DNA of 64,000 nucleotides, taken from the NCBI RefSeq assembly GCF_021531435.1, contig NZ_JAFBIS010000014.1:1-64000 (forward strand), read 5' to 3'. Numbering within the stretch: the stretch's first letter is position 1; every line of letters starts with the position of its first letter. This document shows, piece by piece, positions 8,675 through 19,123 of this stretch. The translations under genes and the position numbers were made by a program. Source of the stretch: Oscillibacter valericigenes (GTDB lineage: Bacteria > Bacillota > Clostridia > Oscillospirales > Oscillospiraceae). The notes below the pieces were generated by a model that did not search any database, had not been told where the DNA came from, and worked only from the letters and a program-made list of their open reading frames with translations.

Positions 8675-9492
8675 AAGCCGCCCTCCCCGTGTTCCTTCAA
8701 GGTCTGGTGGGATTCTTCCACCAGAGCCTTCAAATCAAATTCCATTGGCTGCCAGTCTCCCTTTTCCAAATAGCCTAAATACTCAATATTTCCCTCCGGG
8801 CCGCGAATAGGAGAATATGTTAAACCAAGGACTGTAAAGCCGGATTCCTTTGCATGCTCCAGGAAGTGCTCCAGCACCTCCAGGTGCACCGCCGGGTCCC
8901 GGACAACGCCCTTTTTGCCCACTTTTTCCTTCCCTGCCTCGAACTGGGGCTTCACCAGGCAGGCCACATGGCCGCCGCCCTTCAAAATGCCGCAGACAGC
9001 GGGTAAGATCAGCTTCAGGGAAATGAAGCTGACGTCGATGGACGCAAAATCCAGTTCATCCGGGATCTGCTCATGGGTCAGATACCGGGCGTTGGTCCGC
9101 TCCATACAGACCACCCGGGGGTCCTCACGCAGCTTCCAGGCCAATTGGCCGTAGCCCACATCCACGGCGTACACCTTCGCGGCGCCGTTTTGCAGCATGC
9201 AGTCTGTAAAACCGCCGGTAGACGCGCCGATGTCGCCGCAAACGGCGCCCTCCAATTTTACCGGAAACGTGGCCATGGCCTTTTCCAGCTTCAGGCCGCC
9301 CCGGCTCACATATTTCAGCGCATTGCCCCGGACTTCGATGGCCGCGTCATTGGGAACGGCAGTGCCGGGCTTATCCACCCGCTGGCCGTTTACAAATACC
9401 AGTCCGCTCATAATGGTGGCCTGGGCCTTCTGCCGCGTCTCCTGCAGGCCCTGCTCCACCAGCAGCACATCCAGCCGTGTTTTATTCGCCAC
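8671..9492 (-). CDS. tlyA: TlyA-type rRNA 2'-O-methyltransferase / haemolysin-like
   Basis: A 273-residue protein with an N-terminal S4 RNA-binding domain (RLDVLLVEQGLQETRQKAQA) and an FtsJ-type Rossmann methyltransferase domain (GDIGASTGGFTDCMLQNGA, then VDVGYGQLAWKL). TlyA enzymes methylate ribose in 16S/23S rRNA; the specific site here is unknown. GTG 9492 is the likely start: GGAGG lies 9 bp upstream and the reading overlaps the dxs stop by 11 bp. Longer readings run deep inside dxs. Confidence 0.9.
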   Translation of the reverse strand: MANKTRLDVLLVEQGLQETRQKAQATIMSGLVFVNGQRVDKPGTAVPNDAAIEVRGNALKYVSRGGLKLEKAMATFPVKLEGAVCGDIGASTGGFTDCMLQNGAAKVYAVDVGYGQLAWKLREDPRVVCMERTNARYLTHEQIPDELDFASIDVSFISLKLILPAVCGILKGGGHVACLVKPQFEAGKEKVGKKGVVRDPAVHLEVLEHFLEHAKESGFTVLGLTYSPIRGPEGNIEYLGYLEKGDWQPMEFDLKALVEESHQTLKEHGEGGL

Positions 9493-11341
9493 TGTCCATC
9501 GCCTCCCGTACCGCCGCCGCAACACCGACAACGTCCAGGCCGCGGCTGTGTTCAAGCTGGCCCACGCTGCCCTCCGGGGCATAGGTCTTTCCCAGATTTT
9601 TCAAAATCAACTTTTCAGGAGCCTGGCCGTGCTCCGCCAAAATCGCTGCCAGCCGCTGGCCCACACACCCGGCGCCGAAGGAGTCCTCCAGCACCAGCAG
9701 CCGATTCCGACCGCCCAGCGCGGCGCAGACCGTCTCATCGTCCAGTGGAGAAACACGGTTCAGCTTTACCACTTCCGCCTGAATGCCCTGCCCGGCCAAC
9801 AGTTCAGCGGCCTCCAAAATGTGGTTCACCAGGATCCCGTAGGAGACCAGCGTCACATCCGCTCCCTGCCGCAGGCACACGATGGGCTTGTCCGACGTAT
9901 CCGCCCGGAACGCACCCTCGCCGCCCCGGGGATAACGGACCGCCACAGGGCCATCCAGGTAAAAGAGGGCCAGCCGCAGCATGGACCGAAGCTCCCCAAA
10001 GCTGGAGGGACAGAGGACGGTAAAGCCGGGAATTTCGGACAGAAACAGCACATCAAAGCAGCCGTGGTGTGTTTCGCCGTCGGCGCCGACCAGCCCCGCC
10101 CGGTCCACCGCCAGCACCACATGGAGGTGCTCCAGGGAAACATCGTGAATGAGCTCGTCGTACCCCCGCTGCAGAAATGTGGAATACACCGCGAATACAG
10201 GGATCATCCCCTGGCTGGCCAGGCCCGCCGACATGGATACGCCGTGCCCTTCCGCAATGGCGACGTCAAAAAAACGCTCCGGGAATTCTTTGGCAAAACC
10301 AGAGAGCCCGGTGCCGTCCGCCATGGCGGCGGTAACAGCGCAGACCCGGCTGTCCTGGGCGGCACAGTCTGTCAGCGCCTTGCCGAAAACAGTGGAAAAG
10401 CTCTCACCCGAAGGCTTTTTCAAAAGACCTGTCACCGGGTCGAAGGGACTAATGCCATGAAACTTGCCGGGGTCCTTCTCCGCGAAGGGGTATCCTTTCC
10501 CCTTCACCGTGTTGACGTGGACCACCACCGGGCTGTTCAGCTCCTTGGCCCACTGGAGCACAACACAAAGCCGGGGCAGGTCATGGCCGTCGATAGGCCC
10601 CAGATAGGTGAAGCCCATATTCTCAAAGAAGGTACTTCCCGGCCAGAGGGTCTTTTTCAGCGAGGTCTTCAGCTTGTGGTTGAACCGGTAAATACGGTTC
10701 TGCTCCGGGTGCTTGCCAAAAAGTCCCCTGTACCACTTTTTAAAGTGATAATAGGCAGGCTTGGACCGCAGGCGGCTCAAATGCCCCGGCATAGCCCCCA
10801 CGTTGGGATTGATGGACATTCCGTTGTCGTTCAAAATCACGATCAGAGGTTCATGGGAATCGCCGGCGTCATTCAGTCCCTCGTAGGCCAGACCACCGGT
10901 CAACGCGCCATCGCCGATGAGAGCCAGAACGTGATAATCCTTATGCTGTAAAGTCCTTGCCCTTGCCATGCCAAGTGCCACGGAAACGGAGTTGGATGCA
11001 TGGCCCGCGATAAAAGCGTCATGTTCGCTCTCATAGGGCTTGGGAAAACCGGAAAGGCCCCCGAACTGGCGGAGCGTGGAAAACAGCTCCTGCCGCCCGG
11101 TCAGGGCCTTGTGAACATAGCACTGGTGGCCCACATCGAACACCAGCCGGTCCGCGGAGGTGTCGAACACCCGGTGGATGGCCACCGTCAGTTCCACTGC
11201 CCCCAGATTGGAGGCCAGGTGTCCGCCGGTCTGGGATACGCTTTCTATCAAAAACGACCGCAGCTCCTCGCAGAGCTGTGGAAGCTGGTCTTTCTCCAGC
11301 GCCTTCACATCGGCGGGAGAATGGATGCTTTCCAAAATCAT
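9482..11341 (-). CDS. dxs: 1-Deoxy-D-xylulose-5-phosphate synthase
   Basis: A 619-residue thiamine diphosphate enzyme that condenses pyruvate and glyceraldehyde 3-phosphate, the first step of the MEP isoprenoid route. It has the Dxs N-terminus ([26 protein letters not shown]), the ThDP-binding [18 protein letters not shown] segment, and a transketolase-like second domain ([26 protein letters not shown]-type, here [10 protein letters not shown]). It starts 17 bp after oapA. With ispA upstream and dxr and ispG elsewhere in the window, much of the isoprenoid pathway is present. Confidence 0.96.
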   Translation of the reverse strand: [619 protein letters not shown]

Positions 11342-11358
11342 ATCTGCTGCCTTTCTCT

Positions 11359-11922
11359 TTAGCGGTGAAAAATGTGGAGGAACCGTCCCGCCCAGTAGAC
11401 CACTTTCGTGCTCTGCTTCATGGCGAAGGTTTTGCCAAGCGCCTTGCCGCCAATGGTCAAACCGGAGATCAAAGCTGTGATCACAACGGAGACCAGGACC
11501 GAGCGCAGGCTCAGCGCCTCCTGAAGGCGCACCACAATGATGGCGCCGGTGGTGCCGCTGACGATGCCGCAGATGTCGCCCACCACGTCGTTGCAGACAC
11601 TGGAGACATGGCTGGCATTCCGCAGCAGATTCAGCGCCTCCTTGGCGCCGGGCTCTTTATGGGAGGCCATGGAGTGGAACGGCCTTGGGTCCGCCGCCGT
11701 TACTGCCACGCCTAGGATGTCAAACACGATGCCCAGGGCAATGAACAGCCCCAAAATCAAAAGGGCGACGGCCATGCCCGCACCGCTCAGCATGGACTCT
11801 GAGGCCAAACTCAGCGCAGCGGATAAAGCCACCGCAAGTAAAAACACCGTGACCGCCCAGCGGTATTGGGAGGATTCTTCTCCCTTTTTCTTCTCTGATT
11901 TTTGATTTTTTGCTTGTTTCAA
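11359..11922 (-). CDS. oapA: OLE-associated membrane protein OapA (DUF21-type)
   Basis: A 187-residue integral membrane protein. A Lys-rich N-terminus (LKQAKNQKSEKKKGEE) is followed by hydrophobic segments at about 20-42, 46-68 and 128-153. Between them lies the conserved stretch ADPRPFHSMASHKEPGAKEA and ASHVSSVCNDVVGDICGIVSG. It resembles the DUF21 membrane part of CorB/CNNM proteins but has no CBS or CorC domains. It follows the OLE RNA directly and precedes dxs, exactly the position of OapA, the partner that localises OLE RNA to the membrane. TTG 11922 is the probable start because GGAGG lies 8 bp upstream; the ATG at 11937 has no binding site. Confidence 0.88.
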   Translation of the reverse strand: MKQAKNQKSEKKKGEESSQYRWAVTVFLLAVALSAALSLASESMLSGAGMAVALLILGLFIALGIVFDILGVAVTAADPRPFHSMASHKEPGAKEALNLLRNASHVSSVCNDVVGDICGIVSGTTGAIIVVRLQEALSLRSVLVSVVITALISGLTIGGKALGKTFAMKQSTKVVYWAGRFLHIFHR

Positions 11923-11954
11923 ACGGATTTCCTCCATGCAGGAAGGTATTCTTC

Positions 11955-12614
11955 ATTCTGCTAAGCCGGCGGCGGCAAAAAAGGTAAATCTTACGGCTTA
12001 GGTACGGGTTGGTTTTCCCCGCGGCGCACCTCTCGTTGCCGATGGAGGCGGTTCCCCCTTCGGCGCAGCGGCGTGACGTTGCCCGAACACGCTACCCGAT
12101 TGCCACTTAGTCCGCACTGCAATCCCTTTTTTGTCTCAATGGAACAGCCTAGGTGATTTCCACCACAGTCCGTCCGCTTCTTTAGCCTCTTTTGCAGCCA
12201 TGGTTTCAGAGAGCAGGGGGCCTCTCGCTCCGGCCGGGAGCAAATTCGGCCTGGCCTCTCATTCGCCATACCCACGCAAGGCAGGCTACATCTGCACACA
12301 GCGTTACGGCCCCGCAGGACCGATGCACCGCATTGCAGGTTCATCATCTGCTTCGTACACAGCTCGGAAATACCACGATGGGAGTACGACTGTGCACAAG
12401 AACAGGTCTCCACGGAAACAGGGTCGGGATAACCATGCCATTGGAAAGCGCCCTGAGTCCGCAAGCGCGCGTGGCGCACTTCCCCCCAGCACCCACCCAA
12501 AACTGGGCGTATCAAGCAGGCACCAGAGGTTTCATCGGTGTGCCCTTCAGAGGATTTTTAGGCCCTCCCTAGGAAACGGCAGATCTGACTAGAATACTGC
12601 GCCGCCGCTTAGCG
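11955..12614 (-). ncRNA. ole: OLE RNA (ornate large extremophilic RNA)
   Basis: About 660 nt with no credible protein. The order ispA - this region - oapA - dxs - tlyA - argR - recN is that of OLE loci in Bacillus halodurans and clostridia, and the length fits the class (about 600 nt). The predicted 5' end GCTAAGCGGCGGC (12601-12613) pairs with the 3' segment GCCGCCGGCTTAGC (11960-11973) with one bulged C, closing the molecule by a long-range stem. Internal hairpins are visible, for example GGCAC...GTGCC near 12525 and a GGCC-rich hairpin near 12230. A consensus promoter sits 7 bp upstream of the proposed 5' end. OLE RNPs are membrane-bound and linked to stress tolerance in other species; ends here are estimates (plus or minus 15 nt). 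Confidence 0.88.
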
Positions 12615-12620
12615 AGGTTT

Positions 12621-12649
12621 AGTATAGCACACCCCACATAAATATACAA
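12621..12649 (-). promoter_or_regulatory. Promoter of OLE RNA
   Basis: On the minus strand TTGTAT (12644-12649) and TATACT (12621-12626) are spaced by 17 bp in an AT-rich patch. Initiation about 7 bp downstream coincides with the 5' strand of the closing stem of the RNA. Confidence 0.8.
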
Positions 12650-12691
12650 CATATTCCGTATATACAATTTGTGAATTTTTCGAGTGCCGCG

Positions 12692-12726
12692 AAAAAGCCG
12701 GAGAGGGGAATTTCCCTCTCCGGCTC
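12692..12726 (-). terminator. Terminator after ispA
   Basis: The stem gccggagaggg / ccctctccggc with a 6-base loop is followed on the minus strand by TTTTTC. It closes the xseA-xseB-ispA unit and separates it from the OLE promoter. Confidence 0.85.
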
Positions 12727-12738
12727 TTGATTTTCCAT

Positions 12739-13614
12739 TTAATGATTCCGCTCCGCCAGGCTGTCCGCCAGGAAAGCCAGAAAGCCATCGGAATCGCAGT
12801 CACGAACGGCGGCCTTGGCCTGTTCCGTACAGGCCAGAACTATCTTGTCGCAGCCCTCCAGACCCAGCAGATCGACGTAGGTCACCTTGCCCTCCTCCTT
12901 GTCGGAGCCGATGGGCTTGCCGAACTCGTCAACGTTTCCGATGACATCCAGCATATCGTCCCGGATCTGGAACGCCAGACCCAGCTGATAGCCGTACTCC
13001 TCCGCGGCAGCCAGCAGCTCCCGGCTTCCTCCGGCGGCAGCGCCCAGCTTGCAGGCCCCCGCGATCATGGCACCGGTCTTGAGGTGGTCCACCTCTTTCA
13101 GCTCCTCTTCCGTCTTCGGGGCGTGGAGGGTGTCCAGGACCTGGCCCGCCACCATGCCGTCTGCCCCGGCGGCCTCCGCCAAAATGAGTGCGCAGTCCGC
13201 CCGCTGCTCCGGGGCAATGTCCGGGGCCGTCAGGATGAGGCGGAACGCCTCCGGCTGGAGGGCGTCTCCCGCCAAGACTGCCATCGTCTCACCAAAGACC
13301 TTGTGGTTGGTGGGCTTGCCCCGGCGGAGGTCATCGTTATCCATGCAGGGCAGATCGTCGTGGATCAGCGAATAGGTATGCACCAGCTCCAGCGCGCAGG
13401 CCACGGGGACCGCCTTCTCCCACTCCAGCCCGGCAAGTCGGGCAAACTCCAGCGTCAGCACCGGGCGGATGCGCTTGCCGCCCGCCAGCAGGCTGTACCG
13501 CATGGACTCGTACAGGTCCGCCCAGTGGGGCTTGTCCATGAACAGGCTGTCCAGATATGCTTCCACCGCCTGACGATAAGCACTGTATTTCGCGTCAAAT
13601 TCTCTCTGTTCCAT
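12739..13614 (-). CDS. ispA: Farnesyl/geranyl diphosphate synthase
   Basis: A 291-residue short-chain trans-prenyltransferase that condenses IPP with allylic diphosphates. The first aspartate-rich motif DDLPCMDNDD is at 86-95, and the second (IRDDMLD) is near 217. Lys/Arg residues for IPP binding are in GGKRIRP (45-51). The residues before the first motif (ALELVHTYSLIH) suggest a short product, probably farnesyl diphosphate. It follows xseB by 5 bp with GGAGG before the ATG. The xseA-xseB-ispA order is standard in Firmicutes. Confidence 0.95.
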   Translation of the reverse strand: MEQREFDAKYSAYRQAVEAYLDSLFMDKPHWADLYESMRYSLLAGGKRIRPVLTLEFARLAGLEWEKAVPVACALELVHTYSLIHDDLPCMDNDDLRRGKPTNHKVFGETMAVLAGDALQPEAFRLILTAPDIAPEQRADCALILAEAAGADGMVAGQVLDTLHAPKTEEELKEVDHLKTGAMIAGACKLGAAAGGSRELLAAAEEYGYQLGLAFQIRDDMLDVIGNVDEFGKPIGSDKEEGKVTYVDLLGLEGCDKIVLACTEQAKAAVRDCDSDGFLAFLADSLAERNH

Positions 13615-13619
13615 TTTCT

Positions 13620-13856
13620 TCAGTCCTCCTTATCCTCGAAGGGAAGCTCCACGGGCGCACCGTCGGCGCCCTTCATCAGCTTGACCACCTGCTGCTCCGC
13701 CTGATCCAGTTGCTTAGAACAGGATGAGATCAGCTTTGTTCCCTCCTCGAACAGGGCCAGAGAGTCCGCAAGAGGGGCATCGCCCTTCTCCAGAGCCGCC
13801 ACGATCTCCTCCAGACGGGCAAGCTGCTGTTCAAAAGTCGCCTTTTTTGCGCTCAT
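13620..13856 (-). CDS. xseB: Exodeoxyribonuclease VII small subunit
   Basis: A 78-residue helical protein with the family signature FEQQLARLEEIVAALEKGDAPL and ALFEEGTKLISSCSKQLDQAE. It partners the large subunit XseA in degrading single-stranded DNA. The start overlaps the end of xseA by 4 bp and GGAGG precedes it. Confidence 0.95.
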   Translation of the reverse strand: MSAKKATFEQQLARLEEIVAALEKGDAPLADSLALFEEGTKLISSCSKQLDQAEQQVVKLMKGADGAPVELPFEDKED

Positions 13857-15055
13857 TTCCGTACCTCCTCAACTGTGGCGGAAAAACCGCCTTCTCCCAG
13901 TGTGACCGACACTCGCTCCCCGGCTGTCACATCCCGGCAGCTCTTCAATATTTGCCCCGCGTCATTCTGAACCATGGCATAGCCCCGGCCCAGCACCTTC
14001 AGGGGACTCATGGCATCCAGAGAAGCCGCCAGAGCAGCAAAGCTCTGCCGCTTCCGGGCCAACTGTCCGTCTGCCAAATCACCCAGCCGCTGCTGGACAT
14101 GAATCAGCGCCATCCGCTTGTCCTGGACGTAGGCAAGCTGATCTGTCATCACCCGTTTGGACGCCAGTGTTTTCAGCCGCTGACGCAGGGTATCCAGTCG
14201 GGCCGTTTCGCTCTGCTCCATCCGCTCTTCCGCGCCCCGGAGCCACCGCAGCAGCTCCACCTGATCCGGAACAGCAATTTCAGCGGCATTGGAGGGCGTG
14301 CTGGCCCGGGCGTCGGCCACGAAGTCGGAGATGGTCACGTCCGGCTCATGTCCCACAGCGGAGATGACCGGGGTCTCGCAGGCATAGATGGCGCGGGCCA
14401 CTCGCTCGTCGTTGAAGGCCCACAGATCCTCCATGGAGCCGCCGCCCCGGCCGGTGATGATGACGTCACCGATCTTCCATTTATCCGCGTACCGGATGGC
14501 TCCGGCGATCTCCGGCGGAGCCTCCGCGCCCTGCACCCGGACGGGCAGCAGGATGACTTTCGCAATGGGATACCGGCGGCGCAGAATGCGGATCATGTCG
14601 TGGACCGCCGCGCCCGCCGAGGAAGTCACAATGGCGATCTTCTCCGGATAAGCGGGCAGCGGCTTTTTGTGGGCGGGGTCAAACAGCCCCTCGGCGTACA
14701 GCTTGGCCTTCAGCTGCTCAAAAGCCACCGCCAGGTCGCCCACGCCCTCCGGGGTCATGGTATTGCAGTAGAGCTGATAGGCACCGTCACGGGGAAACAC
14801 GGTGACACGGCCCGTCACCACTACCTTCATGCCGTTTTCCGGCCGGAACCGGAGGCGCATGGCGCTGCCCTTGAACATGACGCAGCGGATGGCGCCCTCC
14901 TGGTCCTTCAGGGAGAAATAGTGGTGCCCGGAGGGGTACATTTTGTAGTTGGAAAGTTCGCCCCGGACGCAGATGTTCTGGAGCATGGGCTCGTTGTCCA
15001 GCAGGAGCTTCACCAATTCATTGACTTCGGTAACGCCGAAGATATGCTGTTCCAT
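13853..15055 (-). CDS. xseA: Exodeoxyribonuclease VII large subunit
   Basis: A 400-residue nuclease subunit. The N-terminal OB fold (about 1-100; FGVTEVNELVKLLLDNEPML then VRGELSNYKMYPSGHHYFSL) is followed by the catalytic domain (IAIVTSSAGAAVHDMI, ITGRGGGSMEDLWAFNDE, SAVGHEPDVTISDFVADARA) and a C-terminal helical region for XseB. Length is slightly below the E. coli enzyme, as usual for Firmicutes. AGGAGG precedes ATG 15055. Confidence 0.95.
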   Translation of the reverse strand: MEQHIFGVTEVNELVKLLLDNEPMLQNICVRGELSNYKMYPSGHHYFSLKDQEGAIRCVMFKGSAMRLRFRPENGMKVVVTGRVTVFPRDGAYQLYCNTMTPEGVGDLAVAFEQLKAKLYAEGLFDPAHKKPLPAYPEKIAIVTSSAGAAVHDMIRILRRRYPIAKVILLPVRVQGAEAPPEIAGAIRYADKWKIGDVIITGRGGGSMEDLWAFNDERVARAIYACETPVISAVGHEPDVTISDFVADARASTPSNAAEIAVPDQVELLRWLRGAEERMEQSETARLDTLRQRLKTLASKRVMTDQLAYVQDKRMALIHVQQRLGDLADGQLARKRQSFAALAASLDAMSPLKVLGRGYAMVQNDAGQILKSCRDVTAGERVSVTLGEGGFSATVEEVRK

Positions 15056-15146: not shown

Positions 15147-15596
15147 TTATTCGCCGATCTCCTGCCGCACAAAGCTGCCCAGGATACCGTTGATGAACTT
15201 CACCGTCTCCGGCGTCTCGTACTTTTTGGCGATCTCCACGGCCTCGTTGATGGCGGCGCCGTTGGGGATGTCCGGCATGTACAAGATCTCGTACATGGCC
15301 ACCCGCATGATGGCGGAGGCCACCAAGGGGATACGGGCAAAGCTCCAGCCCTTGGCGTACTTGGCAATGTAGCCGTCCAACTCCGCCGCGTGCTCCTCCA
15401 CGCCCTTTACCAGACGGCGGATATACTCCGCCTGCTTAGCGTTGGGCGCCTCGGCATAAAGGGCGTCCTCCTCCGCCAGAGTAGCGAAGGTGTCCGCCGT
15501 CAGCCGCTGGTCCAGCAGCTCGTCAACGGTCTTGTCCGTGAAGCTCAGTTCATAGGAAAGATGGATCGCGATCTCCCGCGCGGTGTTCCGTACCAT
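15147..15596 (-). CDS. nusB: Transcription antitermination factor NusB
   Basis: A 149-residue all-helical protein that acts with NusE/S10 in rRNA transcription antitermination. Family signatures are AREIAIHLSYELSF near the N-terminus, RIPLVASAIMRVAMYEILY and the ending GAAINEAVEIAKKYETPETV, then FINGILG. It lies downstream of asp23, an order common in clostridia, and is followed by a terminator. Confidence 0.95.
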   Translation of the reverse strand: MVRNTAREIAIHLSYELSFTDKTVDELLDQRLTADTFATLAEEDALYAEAPNAKQAEYIRRLVKGVEEHAAELDGYIAKYAKGWSFARIPLVASAIMRVAMYEILYMPDIPNGAAINEAVEIAKKYETPETVKFINGILGSFVRQEIGE

Positions 15597-15638
15597 ACAG
15601 CAATTCGTCCTTTTCTCTCTCGTTCACACATTGGGCCG

Positions 15639-16016
15639 TCAGGCCAGGGTCACGCCGCCCACATGGATGTTGACGGTGCCCACAGGGCAGCCGGTCATGG
15701 CCTCCACAGCGGAGGCGACGGCCTTCTGGGCGTTCTCCGCCACCTCGGGGATGGCGTGGCCATACTGCACCGTCAGGTACAGGTCCAGCACCAAAGCCGT
15801 GCCGGTCATGTCGATCTTGACACCCTTGGCGCCCTTCTGGGCATTCTTGCGGTTGTTCACCAGGTCCGTGACGCTGTTGCCCATGCTGGTCATCATGCCG
15901 GACACGCCCTCCACCTCGCGGACGGCGCCCACGGCGATGGCGGCGATGACTTCCTCCGAAATGTTGATGCTTCCGTTTTCCTCCGGCAGCGTCATGTATT
16001 CCTTGCTATCAGCCAT
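15639..16016 (-). CDS. Asp23/Gls24 family envelope stress protein
   Basis: A 125-residue small protein with the Asp23 domain (INISEEVIAAIAVGAVREVEG, then VKIDMTGTALVLDLYLTVQY). Proteins of this family associate with the cell envelope in Gram-positive bacteria; the member beside nusB is widespread (YqhY in Bacillus) and tied to lipid synthesis there. Start MADSKEYM at 16016 is chosen for the GGAG at correct distance; a longer reading to 16082 would overlap the promoter. Confidence 0.92.
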   Translation of the reverse strand: MADSKEYMTLPEENGSINISEEVIAAIAVGAVREVEGVSGMMTSMGNSVTDLVNNRKNAQKGAKGVKIDMTGTALVLDLYLTVQYGHAIPEVAENAQKAVASAVEAMTGCPVGTVNIHVGGVTLA

Positions 16017-16072
16017 TGCGATTCTCCTTATCCTTGGTATCCAGGACCGTATTTTCTTCATTCTGGATAGAT

Positions 16073-16101
16073 ATTTTACCATGGTATGCGGAAAATTACA
16101 A
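16073..16101 (-). promoter_or_regulatory. Promoter of asp23-nusB
   Basis: On the minus strand TTGTAA (16096-16101) and TAAAAT (16073-16078) are spaced by 17 bp, immediately after the spoIIIAH stop codon and about 57 bp before the asp23-like gene. Confidence 0.7.
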
Positions 16102-16104
16102 CAG

Positions 16105-16668
16105 CTAATTTGCGGCCATGATCTTCACGTCGGACACCGGCAGCCCGGTCTCCGACACGGCGATGTCCGTGATCTTCGCCACGTCCGCCTCCGTCAGCTC
16201 CCCGCTGTCGGTGGAGACCACCACGCTGATGCCGTCGTCCCCCATGAAGGCCACGCACTCCTTGTAGCCCTTGGCGGTCACCAGGTTCTCCACCTGGGCC
16301 TCCTTCATGGTGTAGGACGCCAGCACCTGAATGCCCTGGCTGGCCTCATTGATAACGGACTGGTCGGCGTTTTCCTGGTCCGCCGCCTCCTGAAGCAGGC
16401 TGATGGCGTTGTCCCGGGCCTGCTGCCGGGTCAGCCGGGCGGAGGCAAAATAATCCGAACCGGTATAGACTTCCGTCTCATCCACGGCCTCCGCCGCGCC
16501 GTCCTCCTGGCCGGAGACCAGGGTGGCCTCCCCCAGGATCTTCGTACCCGTTTCCTCCGCGTCCTTCACCGCCTCCCGGCCGGAGAATTTCCAGTTCAGC
16601 GCCACCGCCGCGCATACCAGCACCGCCATGGTGGCTATCACTGTGTTCCGCTTCCATTTTGCGCTCAT
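16105..16668 (-). CDS. spoIIIAH: Stage III sporulation protein AH
   Basis: A 187-residue mother-cell protein with one N-terminal membrane anchor (VIATMAVLVCAAVALNW) and an extracellular C-terminal domain of the YscJ/FliF-like ring-building fold (SASQGIQV-type, here NEASQGIQVLASYTMKEAQ). SpoIIIAH meets forespore SpoIIQ across the intermembrane space to form the feeding-tube channel. GGAGG precedes ATG 16668; longer readings enter spoIIIAG. The interdomain linker is Glu-rich. Confidence 0.95.
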   Translation of the reverse strand: MSAKWKRNTVIATMAVLVCAAVALNWKFSGREAVKDAEETGTKILGEATLVSGQEDGAAEAVDETEVYTGSDYFASARLTRQQARDNAISLLQEAADQENADQSVINEASQGIQVLASYTMKEAQVENLVTAKGYKECVAFMGDDGISVVVSTDSGELTEADVAKITDIAVSETGLPVSDVKIMAAN

Positions 16669-16688
16669 ACTTTTCCTCCTCCAAACGA

Positions 16689-17198
16689 TCACTGCCATTT
16701 TGCCACGGTGATGCGGTCTGCGCTCAGTCCGGTGAGAGACGCCACCGCCTCTGTCACCGTCAGCCGCACATCCGCCCTGTCTCCGCCCTGACAGACCACC
16801 AGGGCCCCCCGGTACGTCGGATACAGGGTCCGGGTCACTACCGTCCCGTCTCCCCCGCCATCCGTCAAAACGGTCTCGGACCTGCGGGAATAGTCCTCCG
16901 GCGCCGCGGCGCTGCCGCTGTACGTCAGTTCCGTGTCCTGGGCCAGCTGCCGCTCGCCGTCGGAATCCACCGTCAGCATCACCTTCACCTGACCCACCCC
17001 ACTTATGGCGCCAAGAATACCCTCCATCTCCGTCTGAATATCCCGGATATCCGCCGTCTCTGTCTGCCGCCGCGAGGTCGTCTCTGTACCGCCTTTTCCA
17101 CTCGGCCATAACAGCAGCCCTGCGCCGATCAGCACCACTAATGCCGCGTATTTGTACCTGTCCCATAGCTTTCGCACTCCTTCAGTTTTCCCTTTCAT
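16689..17198 (-). CDS. spoIIIAG: Stage III sporulation protein AG
   Basis: A 169-residue protein with one membrane anchor at about 17-32 (YAALVVLIGAGLLLWP) and a ring-forming extracellular domain (ISGVGQVKVMLTVDSDGERQ). Its homologue assembles into the large ring of the mother-cell to forespore channel. It overlaps the end of spoIIIAF by 17 bp. Confidence 0.95.
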   Translation of the reverse strand: MKGKTEGVRKLWDRYKYAALVVLIGAGLLLWPSGKGGTETTSRRQTETADIRDIQTEMEGILGAISGVGQVKVMLTVDSDGERQLAQDTELTYSGSAAAPEDYSRRSETVLTDGGGDGTVVTRTLYPTYRGALVVCQGGDRADVRLTVTEAVASLTGLSADRITVAKWQ

Positions 17199-17661
17199 GC
17201 CAAACCTGCCTCTCCCGCGGTATCCCCAGCTCGTTTTTCATATACGACGCCAGTTCCTCTGACCGGGGACCCGTGACCTCCGCCGCAGCGGGCACCGGCA
17301 CACCGTCGTCCCCCGTGTCTGTCTCCACCCGGACGGTCACCTCCAGCCCCAGAGCGTCCGCTTTGTCCGATATATATGCGGCTGTCCGCTCCGCTATACG
17401 TTCCGCCATCTCGGTATCGCCGGCGGAGGACAGCTCCTCCCGGGCATTCTGAAGCTCCCGTTCGTATCCGTCCAGGTCCAGCCGCAGGCGCTCCAGGTCG
17501 GCGCCAAGTACCGGCCGCAGCAGCGCGACCAGCAGGATGAGCCCTCCGGCAAAGGAGGCCACCCGGCGGATACTCCCCTCCGGCACCAGCATCTGGGCCA
17601 CGGACAGCAGCAGCGTCACTACCACGATGGAGGTGAGCCACTCCCGCAGCGCCCCGATCAT
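17182..17661 (-). CDS. spoIIIAF: Stage III sporulation protein AF
   Basis: A 159-residue protein with two N-terminal membrane helices (residues about 8-27 and 35-53: VVVTLLLSVAQMLVPEG, FAGGLILLVALLRPVLG) and a soluble mixed domain typical of SpoIIIAF. It overlaps spoIIIAE by 4 bp, so translation is probably coupled. Confidence 0.94.
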   Translation of the reverse strand: MIGALREWLTSIVVVTLLLSVAQMLVPEGSIRRVASFAGGLILLVALLRPVLGADLERLRLDLDGYERELQNAREELSSAGDTEMAERIAERTAAYISDKADALGLEVTVRVETDTGDDGVPVPAAAEVTGPRSEELASYMKNELGIPRERQVWHEREN

Positions 17662-18737
17662 GGCACCACCGCCGCCACGGAGGACAGCACGGAAACCAGA
17701 AGCAGCACCGCGCAGCTCCCGGTCATTCCCAGCACCAGGCCAAAGGCGCCGCCCAGTCCGTCAATGAGCTTGCCAAGCCCCGGCGCCCCCACCGCCCCGG
17801 CCAAAAAAGCCGTCAGCTTGTACAGGAGGTATTGGATGCCCAGCTGCAAAAACGGATAGGCACAGGAGGCCAGGATCACCAGCGTTCCGAAAACGCCGAT
17901 GGTGCTTCTCAGCATCCCCGCGCCCGCCAGCACCGTTTCCGACGCCTCGGCAATGATGCTCCCCACCACCGGCACCACGCTGGAGACGGCGGCCTTCGCC
18001 ACCTTTACCGTGGCATTATCGGCTGTGCCGGCAATGACCCGGGCAACGGACAGATATACCGTGAACACCAGCAGAGCCGTGGTCAGCATCCATGTCACCG
18101 CCTTTTTCAAGCCATCCGCCAATGCGGTCAGACGGCTTTCCGACAGGCAGGCCGACGCGGTGAGAACGCCGATGTAGAGATAGACCAGCGGCAGCAGCAA
18201 TCCGTTGATGAGGTCCATCAGCAGGTCTACCAAAAACACGGTGGTCACCTGCTGGAAGGCGGCGGCGCTGACCTGGCCGGAGGCCGCCATCGCCGCCGCA
18301 AGGGTGGGCAGCAAGGCTTTGGAAAACGTGTCCAGTTCCCCGATGGTCTCCGCTCCCAAGCCGATGAGACTGTCCAGGCTCCCGGCGGTCAGAAGCGTCA
18401 CGGACAGCGCCCCCGCCATCGGCAGAAATATCGCTGCTTTTCCGGCTCCCGCTCCGACGCGAAAGCCCTCCACCGCGCCGCAGAGGATGACCACCAGCAA
18501 AACAGACGCCGCCCCCTGCACCCGCTGGCGCAGGATCGTGCCGACCTGTCCGCCCACCTTTTCCAGCAATGCGGAAATGCCGCCGGTAAAGCCCTCCGTG
18601 CCGGAAAAATCCTCTCCACGGAGCAGTTCTTTTGCACCGTCCGGCACGGCGTGGGTCAGGTCTTTGGGCAGCTCCGCCGCACAAACGCCCACCGTCAGCA
18701 TCAAAACCGCCCCCAGCAAACAAAGCATTCGTTTCAT
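17658..18737 (-). CDS. spoIIIAE: Stage III sporulation protein AE
   Basis: A 359-residue polytopic membrane protein with a signal peptide (MKRMLCLLGAVLMLTVGVCA) and about seven further hydrophobic stretches, the largest membrane part of the SpoIIIA complex. It starts within the end of spoIIIAD (4-bp overlap). The reading can be extended upstream without a stop, but that extension covers spoIIIAD in another frame, so ATG 18737 is used. Confidence 0.94.
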   Translation of the reverse strand: MKRMLCLLGAVLMLTVGVCAAELPKDLTHAVPDGAKELLRGEDFSGTEGFTGGISALLEKVGGQVGTILRQRVQGAASVLLVVILCGAVEGFRVGAGAGKAAIFLPMAGALSVTLLTAGSLDSLIGLGAETIGELDTFSKALLPTLAAAMAASGQVSAAAFQQVTTVFLVDLLMDLINGLLLPLVYLYIGVLTASACLSESRLTALADGLKKAVTWMLTTALLVFTVYLSVARVIAGTADNATVKVAKAAVSSVVPVVGSIIAEASETVLAGAGMLRSTIGVFGTLVILASCAYPFLQLGIQYLLYKLTAFLAGAVGAPGLGKLIDGLGGAFGLVLGMTGSCAVLLLVSVLSSVAAVVP

Positions 18738-19123
18738 CCCATCAGCTCCATCAGCAGCTCCAGCACTGCCCGCAGCAAGGGCATGGCGACCAGCAGCGCG
18801 CACACCGCCCCCGCCGTCTCCACCACCGACGCCAGAGCCGCGCCTCCCGCGTCCCGGCACAGGTCGCCGCCCACCTTTGCCACCAGTCCGATCCCTACAG
18901 TTTTATACAAAGGGACGAACAGCGTCTCCGAAACGCCGCTCCGCTCCCCCAGCTCCCGCAGAAACTCCACCAGCTCTCCCAGCCCGTCCGTCAACAGGGC
19001 CAGCCCCGCGACGGCGGCGCACAGCACCAGCAGCAGCGCCTGTTCCGGGCTGGTTTTTTTCAGCACCAGGGCCAGAATCACCCCCACGACGCACAGCGCC
19101 GTCACCCGTGACGCCAGCTCCAT
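18734..19123 (-). CDS. spoIIIAD: Stage III sporulation protein AD
   Basis: A 129-residue membrane protein with four predicted helices and the characteristic amphipathic segment LGELVEFLRELGERSGVSETLFVPLYK (shown in part). It begins 2 bp after spoIIIAC and probably depends on coupled translation because no clear ribosome-binding site is present. Confidence 0.95.
   Translation of the reverse strand: MELASRVTALCVVGVILALVLKKTSPEQALLLVLCAAVAGLALLTDGLGELVEFLRELGERSGVSETLFVPLYKTVGIGLVAKVGGDLCRDAGGAALASVVETAGAVCALLVAMPLLRAVLELLMELMG

Follow-up and report, generated by a model that had tools for sequence, protein, structure and literature searches.

An OLE RNA of Oscillibacter valericigenes with an additional hairpin in place of junction J5/6

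The minus strand of positions 11953-12621 in the window, i.e., the stretch of 64,000 nt of Oscillibacter valericigenes DNA analyzed here, is a genuine full-length OLE RNA. New is that it represents a family-specific sub-variant, in which a hairpin termed P5a stands in place of junction J5/6. Taking all observations together, we consider it about 85% probable that an OLE RNA gene with oapA downstream gained P5a and thereby lost a strand of kink-turn (k-turn) 1a, and that some relatives later lost the protein partner OapC. Among bacterial RNAs of unsolved function, OLE RNAs are some of the largest.

The assignment to this RNA class is based on a comparison of positions 10000-15000 with all Rfam families, where OLE (RF01071) was the single match (12621-11953, minus strand, 379.5 bits, E = 4.8e-109), well above the curated gathering score of 50 and with full coverage of the model (positions 1-616). 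A previous sequence-only reading had placed an OLE RNA at 11955-12614 and had proposed a search of the minus strand with the Rfam covariance model; the high-scoring, full-length match confirms the region, and the ends have to be corrected to about 11953-12621 according to the model. The own genome (2.80-Mb assembly) contains one OLE match in total, and the covariance-model search gave a match in 0/14 control genomes. The plain fold of the whole RNA is modestly more stable than that of shuffled sequences (z = -2.19), with one of 20 shuffles being equally stable.

That gut Clostridia carry OLE is no novelty. We found it in 41 of 150 sampled genomes of the family and in 135 of 341 genomes of the class, two of these 135 being from the family of the window, and the accessible text of PMC11332333 describes 2,822 OLE hits in Bacillota as well as OLE variants from gut lineages. 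An OLE RNA in a gut anaerobe is therefore expected. The nearest OapA loci bearing genus names, from which the family was taken to be Oscillospiraceae, belong to Oscillibacter and Dysosmobacter, many of them from animal gut samples.

Compared to the full-length OLE RNAs of, e.g., Halalkalibacterium halodurans and Clostridium acetobutylicum (RF01071), the window RNA matches all 616 model positions, keeps the dimer loops L4, L5, L6 and L9.3 and shares the genomic setting with oapA downstream and isoprenoid, argR and recN genes nearby. It differs from them by P5a instead of the UUAAG of J5/6 together with two possible extra pairs of P6, by position 84 of J4a/5 being C and not U and by a long, strongly paired terminal helix (Table 1). 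The published OLE variants 1 and 2 of the TANB77 and RF39 clades (PMC11332333) resemble the window RNA in their gut origin and in a covariance score below that of the standard type, the variant bins of that paper being defined by the bit score of its own model. As far as described there, P7-P9 are shortened or missing in these variants, whereas the window RNA has P7, P8 and P9 (stem naming following our reading of the alignment to the model) and shows a gain in J5/6. An assignment to variant 1 or 2 was consequently rejected.

Table 1. Features of the OLE locus in the window (positions refer to the window).
Feature	Position	Strand	Basis or remark
OLE RNA, full length	11953..12621	minus	cmscan vs RF01071
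P5a, extra 8-pair hairpin replacing J5/6	12463..12481	minus	covariation, family comparison
GC extending P6 by two possible pairs with GU of J6/7	12461..12462	minus	family comparison
OapC kink-turn, strand in J4a/5 (C-C-GAU-GAA)	12531..12538	minus	C for usual U at position 84; role according to PMC9723947 (accessible text)
J6/7 GUGGAGAC, k-turn 1b strand, kept	12406..12413	minus	role according to PMC12286853 and PMC12054373 (accessible text)
L4 CUAAAAAU, A-A contact in the dimer seen by cryo-EM	12554..12561	minus	invariant in 39 aligned family RNAs; role according to PMC12286853 (accessible text)
Palindrome GGCC in L9.3, kissing loop of the dimer (bridge B3)	12232..12235	minus	at least 90% conserved in 39 family RNAs; role according to PMC12286853 (accessible text)
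Terminal helix, 5' arm	12601..12613	minus	pairs with 11960-11973
Terminal helix, 3' arm	11960..11973	minus	no T-run after the arm
Candidate promoter TTGTAT-17-TATACT, TGC before the -10	12621..12649	minus	sequence
Palindromic terminator between ispA and OLE, 13-pair stem	12696..12725	T-run following on the minus strand	terminator scan and sequence
oapA, 192 aa, CNNM/DUF21-like membrane protein	11359..11937	minus	Pfam CNNM and family neighborhood
ispA, farnesyl diphosphate synthase	12739..13614	minus	
dxs	9482..11341	minus	

According to their J5/6 region, the 41 OLE RNAs of the family fall into class I, 13 RNAs in which UUAAG links P5 to P6, and class II, 28 RNAs with P5a including that of the window. 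P5a as the relevant divergence had escaped the sequence-only reading. Of the 80 named OapA loci closest to that of the window, 68 were readable and all of these were likewise scored as having an insert, the other 12 being unparsed (15 of 80 were unparsed in the covariation set and 8 of 80 in the reading of the junction letters). Outside the family, P5a was seen in 0/90 RNAs, a sample drawn from 133 outside-family OLE hits (the 30 best-scoring plus 60 spread over families); in these, the distance from the k-turn strand to L6 amounts to 67-70 nt and the junction is UUAAG-like. A hairpin in J5/6 is not mentioned in the text of the OLE literature as far as accessible to us, and the insert may be present in the alignments of Rfam or of published work; the corresponding text of PMC12265935 places OLE variation in the part from J6/7 to P8.

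The pairing of P5a is supported by covariation. Among 17 distinct arm pairs of the family, 98 of 102 cells were paired, compared to a mean of 75 and a maximum of 87 in whole-arm shuffles, and the inclusion of 65 named relatives led to 189 of 204 cells for 34 distinct arm pairs (shuffle maximum 173). In this larger set, pairs 2, 4 and 5 exceeded every shuffle, pair 1 was invariant and pairs 3 and 6 did not exceed the shuffles. As the arms had been chosen by script as the best-pairing ones, a control with the same choice was performed on letter-shuffled inserts, where re-picked arms reached a mean of 94.5 and a maximum of 111 paired cells in 1,000 shuffles vs 163/168 observed. Related sequences can beat column shuffles even without structure, and changes on both sides of a pair were consequently given most weight.

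In the plain fold, P5, P5a and P6 are predicted to follow each other directly, separated by no more than one unpaired base. The two additional pairs at the base of P6 are possible in all 28 class II RNAs and in none of the 13 class I RNAs, and the inner one is possible in 0/90 of the outside-family RNAs. The insert itself ranges from 14 to 180 nt (median 21). Very long inserts of 108 to 180 nt occur in two family loci (L039 and L041) and two named loci (L211 and L228); the OLE matches of the former two extend over 762 and 833 nt, respectively, and that of L040 spans 841 nt despite a P5a of 32 nt. On an OLE tree built without the junction, in which 9 of the 13 named outgroup loci entered, class II requires two changes, and a single origin is neither shown nor rejected (AU test, p = 0.481). 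We conclude that P5a arose about once.

The position of P5a is relevant due to the role of J5/6 in protein binding. In biochemical studies, J4a/5 and J5/6 form k-turn 1a as the site of OapC (PMC9723947), in the cryo-EM structure J4a/5 and J6/7 form k-turn 1b (PMC12286853), and, judging from its accessible text, PMC12054373 leaves the use of 1a vs 1b by OapC unsettled. Position numbers of H. halodurans and of the published work were mapped by us onto the window and its relatives. In common with these OapC/YbxF systems (PMC9723947; PMC12286853; PMC12054373; accessible text in each case), the window RNA keeps the J4a/5 strand with the invariant C85 and GA as well as J6/7 with GUGGAGAC; unlike in the k-turn 1a system (PMC9723947), however, the UUAAG strand of J5/6 is absent and P5a is found in its place. 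We treat UUAAG in J5/6 as a feature of most OLE members and not as a defining one. With the J5/6 strand gone, any binding of OapC to this RNA would be expected to involve k-turn 1b, formed by J4a/5 and J6/7, or to be weak.

The remaining strands of the kink-turns differ in their conservation. J6/7 is intact (GNGGAG) in 28/28 class II RNAs, and the dimer contacts L4, L5/L6 and L9.3, whose roles are taken from the accessible text of PMC12286853, are conserved in the window RNA according to the family alignment. The GAU bulge of J4a/5 was found in 90/90 outside RNAs and 12/13 class I RNAs and in only 3/28 of class II, and position 84, which is U in 87 and A in three of the 90 outside RNAs, is U in 13, A in six, C in six and G in three class II members. 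Tabulation of position 84 against J6/7, which hardly varies, revealed no co-change. Among the named near relatives, GAU is kept in 42 of 72 readable loci, and the bulge is thus not strongly relaxed in the close kin of the window. A family in which a large part of the members has the 1a strand replaced, while the 1b strand has been retained along with the dimer contacts, represents a natural experiment on the two kink-turns, and some of these members are isolates rather than metagenome bins judging by their record titles, namely Oscillibacter valericigenes An860 and Oscillibacter sp. 1-3, ER4 and PC13.

Further hints come from the distribution of OapC, which was scored as YbxF within 1.5 kb of rpsL in judgeable genomes only. 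It lies beside rpsL in 12/12 judged genomes of class I (13 genomes), in 9/21 of class II (28 genomes, of which seven could not be judged) and in 44/84 of the OLE-negative genomes (109 genomes). Five genomes (one of class II, four OLE-negative), in which rpsL is unclear or lies close to the end of a contig, were left out of the count, as were all genomes without a located rpsL. As YbxF matches were listed down to about 21 bits, the 40/84 absences in OLE-negative genomes are an upper bound. The 12 judged OLE-positive genomes without OapC all belong to class II, and an HMM search among the ORFs of the sequence retrieved upstream of rpsL revealed OapC in none of these 12; over the 33 family genomes and the own genome, this search found OapC in 21, the stretch of one genome (G093) ending at the contig end. 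The genome of the window and eight other class II genomes retain OapC. The absences lie in sister lineages: a clade of 14 class II members (support 98/97) comprises nine without OapC and five not judged, and three further class II members of the tree lack it.

For the association between class and OapC, Fisher's exact test, which ignores kinship, gives p = 0.0017. However, as P5a arose about once, the link does not constitute statistically independent evidence: the tree offers one phylogenetically independent pair on starred branches and two on all branches, with which a sign test cannot reach significance. The state of OapC changes at least four times on the tree, three times within class II, and the tree gives no direction for these changes. 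In addition, YbxF is missing in up to 40/84 OLE-negative genomes, and the loss of OapC may therefore have other causes.

Based on these observations, we propose the following course. As described for H. halodurans, the RNA would dimerize and OapA would retain it at the membrane; RNA, OapA, OapB, OapC and bS21 could together form a stress-responsive particle, with a function that is presumably the one of OLE RNAs in general. In this lineage, P5a was gained between P5 and P6, and P6 may be longer by two basal pairs. The J5/6 strand required by k-turn 1a would have been removed thereby. Most likely, P5a would have fixed the junction in the state in which P5 and P6 are formed, rendering an OapC-induced rearrangement unnecessary, and some relatives could subsequently have lost OapC. 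The data fit an order in which k-turn 1a was lost first and OapC became dispensable later.

Two other explanations of P5a deserve attention. The hairpin could be a neutral expansion, comparable to the expansion segments of rRNA, at an exposed junction, with k-turn 1b being the one site that matters for OapC in the family and with absences of OapC that are unrelated to the hairpin; we regard this as a serious option that falls somewhat short of even odds. It would account for the wide range of insert lengths up to the 180 nt tolerated in the long-insert loci, for the kept J6/7 and for the OLE-negative genomes in which OapC is also absent. Harder to reconcile with neutrality is that the J4a/5 bulge and position 84, (near-)invariant in 90/90 outside RNAs, vary in class II, so that the change reaches the OapC strand itself, and that no genome without OapC was found among the 12 judged of class I.

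Rather unlikely, in our estimation, is that P5a acts as an RNA replacement for OapC, i.e., that the hairpin stabilizes and locks the J4a/5-P6 junction otherwise remodeled by the protein, which would thereby have become dispensable and would then have been lost repeatedly. Such a function could be reflected in the predicted abutment of P5, P5a and P6, in the possible P6 extension specific to class II within the family and in the restriction of all judged OLE-positive absences of OapC to this class, but it is weakened by the 9/21 judged class II genomes that retain OapC and by the approximately single origin of P5a. If true, k-turn 1a would be dispensable and k-turn 1b would form the architectural core. 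The relatives without OapC might offer a smaller particle for structural work.

At the level of genes, a complete OLE ribonucleoprotein is predicted for the strain of the window. The ORF of oapA starts at the 16th base past the end of the OLE model, its start being uncertain (11920-11937), as the ATG at 11937 overlaps a GGAGG suited to a TTG start at 11922. The protein scores 26.6 bits against Pfam CNNM, below the cut-off of 28.4, and gave no meaningful match to PDB sequences (best E = 0.057). Its identity is supported by family context: an OapA match follows OLE in 40/41 family loci, and an HMM built from 40 OapA ORFs of the family matches an ORF in 23 of 30 outside-family OLE loci (E = 2.2e-58 to 9.7e-72), the other seven giving no match or being unparsed and the position marker of L082 being unreliable. 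This substantiates the layout of RNA plus OapA suggested earlier. The only one of the 41 family loci without an OapA match within 1.5 kb downstream is L028 (genome G029, OLE at 1501-2167), where by our reading an aminopeptidase-like ORF lies upstream; a weak CNNM match in the same genome could be a relocated oapA.

The other partners are encoded elsewhere in the own genome. A gene for OapB (94 aa; L043:1195-1479) directly precedes infA and has OapB (7k9b, E = 4e-6) as best PDB match, with no fitting family in NCBIfam. The gene for OapC (L042:2376-2660) directly precedes rpsL, and its product has YbxF (4lck, E = 9.7e-13) as best PDB match and scores far higher with the L7ae-like PRK13602 (69.3 bits) than with YlxQ (20.3 bits), both under the NCBIfam cut-offs; bS21 is encoded as well. 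The proposal that a non-extremophile carries the complete ribonucleoprotein therefore holds for the genes, but the surprise it implied does not, OLE being common in the family and class. OapB-like genes are present in 32/41 OLE-positive and 70/109 OLE-negative family genomes. Of the 12 class II genomes without OapC, 10 have such a gene.

The sole CNNM match of the own genome is weak (E = 5.2e-7) and was interpreted as OapA. In the family, 9/41 OLE-positive vs 99/109 OLE-negative genomes have strong CNNM matches (E below 1e-20). This distribution agrees with the anticorrelation of OLE and MpfA described in the accessible text of PMC11332333, the CNNM matches counted here not being proven MpfA.

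The complementary ends of the RNA noted in the sequence-only reading were verified as well: 12613-12601 GCTAAGCGGCGGC pairs with 11973-11960 GCCGCCGGCTTAGC over 13 pairs with one bulged G. In an alignment of 39 family RNAs (the 41 minus L031 and L040, whose 5' ends are cut), the helix is kept for about seven pairs, with pairs 4, 5 and 6 exceeding all 1,000 column shuffles, pairs 1-3 being nearly invariant and pairs 7-11 not exceeding them. The 3' arm lacks a subsequent T-run and thus does not resemble a terminator in front of oapA, and read-through from OLE into oapA is likely. In H. halodurans, the OLE cluster is described as one polycistronic transcript (accessible text of PMC12265935).

The OLE RNA gene probably has its own promoter. 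An extended -10 element (TGCTATACT, 12629-12621) is located just upstream of the RNA, from which a 5' end near 12614 can be inferred, and a TATAAT-like hexamer (at least 5/6) was found just upstream of OLE in 25/36 family loci vs 8/36 in a control stretch. The promoter scan did not list this candidate, whose hexamers match at three and five positions and thus fall under the threshold; it lists another site at 12675-12648, with one site found vs 0.9 expected by chance. Upstream, the terminator between ispA and OLE was listed in full on the plus strand and in part on the minus strand, and the scanned stretch contains six terminator-like sites vs 1.9 expected.

That the region instead represents an extended untranslated oapA leader or an overlooked coding sequence is very improbable: the proximity of oapA with no terminator in between, the ORFs of up to 174 aa and the polycistronic RNA of H. 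halodurans (PMC12265935, accessible text) might suggest it, but the full-length match to a structured RNA family, the family-wide compensatory changes and the lack of Pfam matches for the inside ORFs led us to reject it as an alternative to OLE, a possible co-transcription with oapA being compatible with an OLE RNA. The three longest ORFs inside the region (174, 153 and 126 aa, spread over both strands) had no Pfam match with E ≤ 1, in line with the earlier impression that it contains no credible gene.

On the minus strand, the order of genes is xseA, xseB, ispA, OLE, oapA, dxs, tlyA, nadK, argR and recN, the latter assigned from its SMC/RecN domain. The order from ispA via the RNA and a DUF21-type protein to dxs, tlyA, argR and recN had been recognized correctly before, except for nadK, which lies between tlyA and argR and had been omitted. 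Further upstream of xseA, nusB, asp23 and spoIIIAE (15147-18860, minus strand) are found, i.e., a sporulation cluster adjoins the OLE operon.
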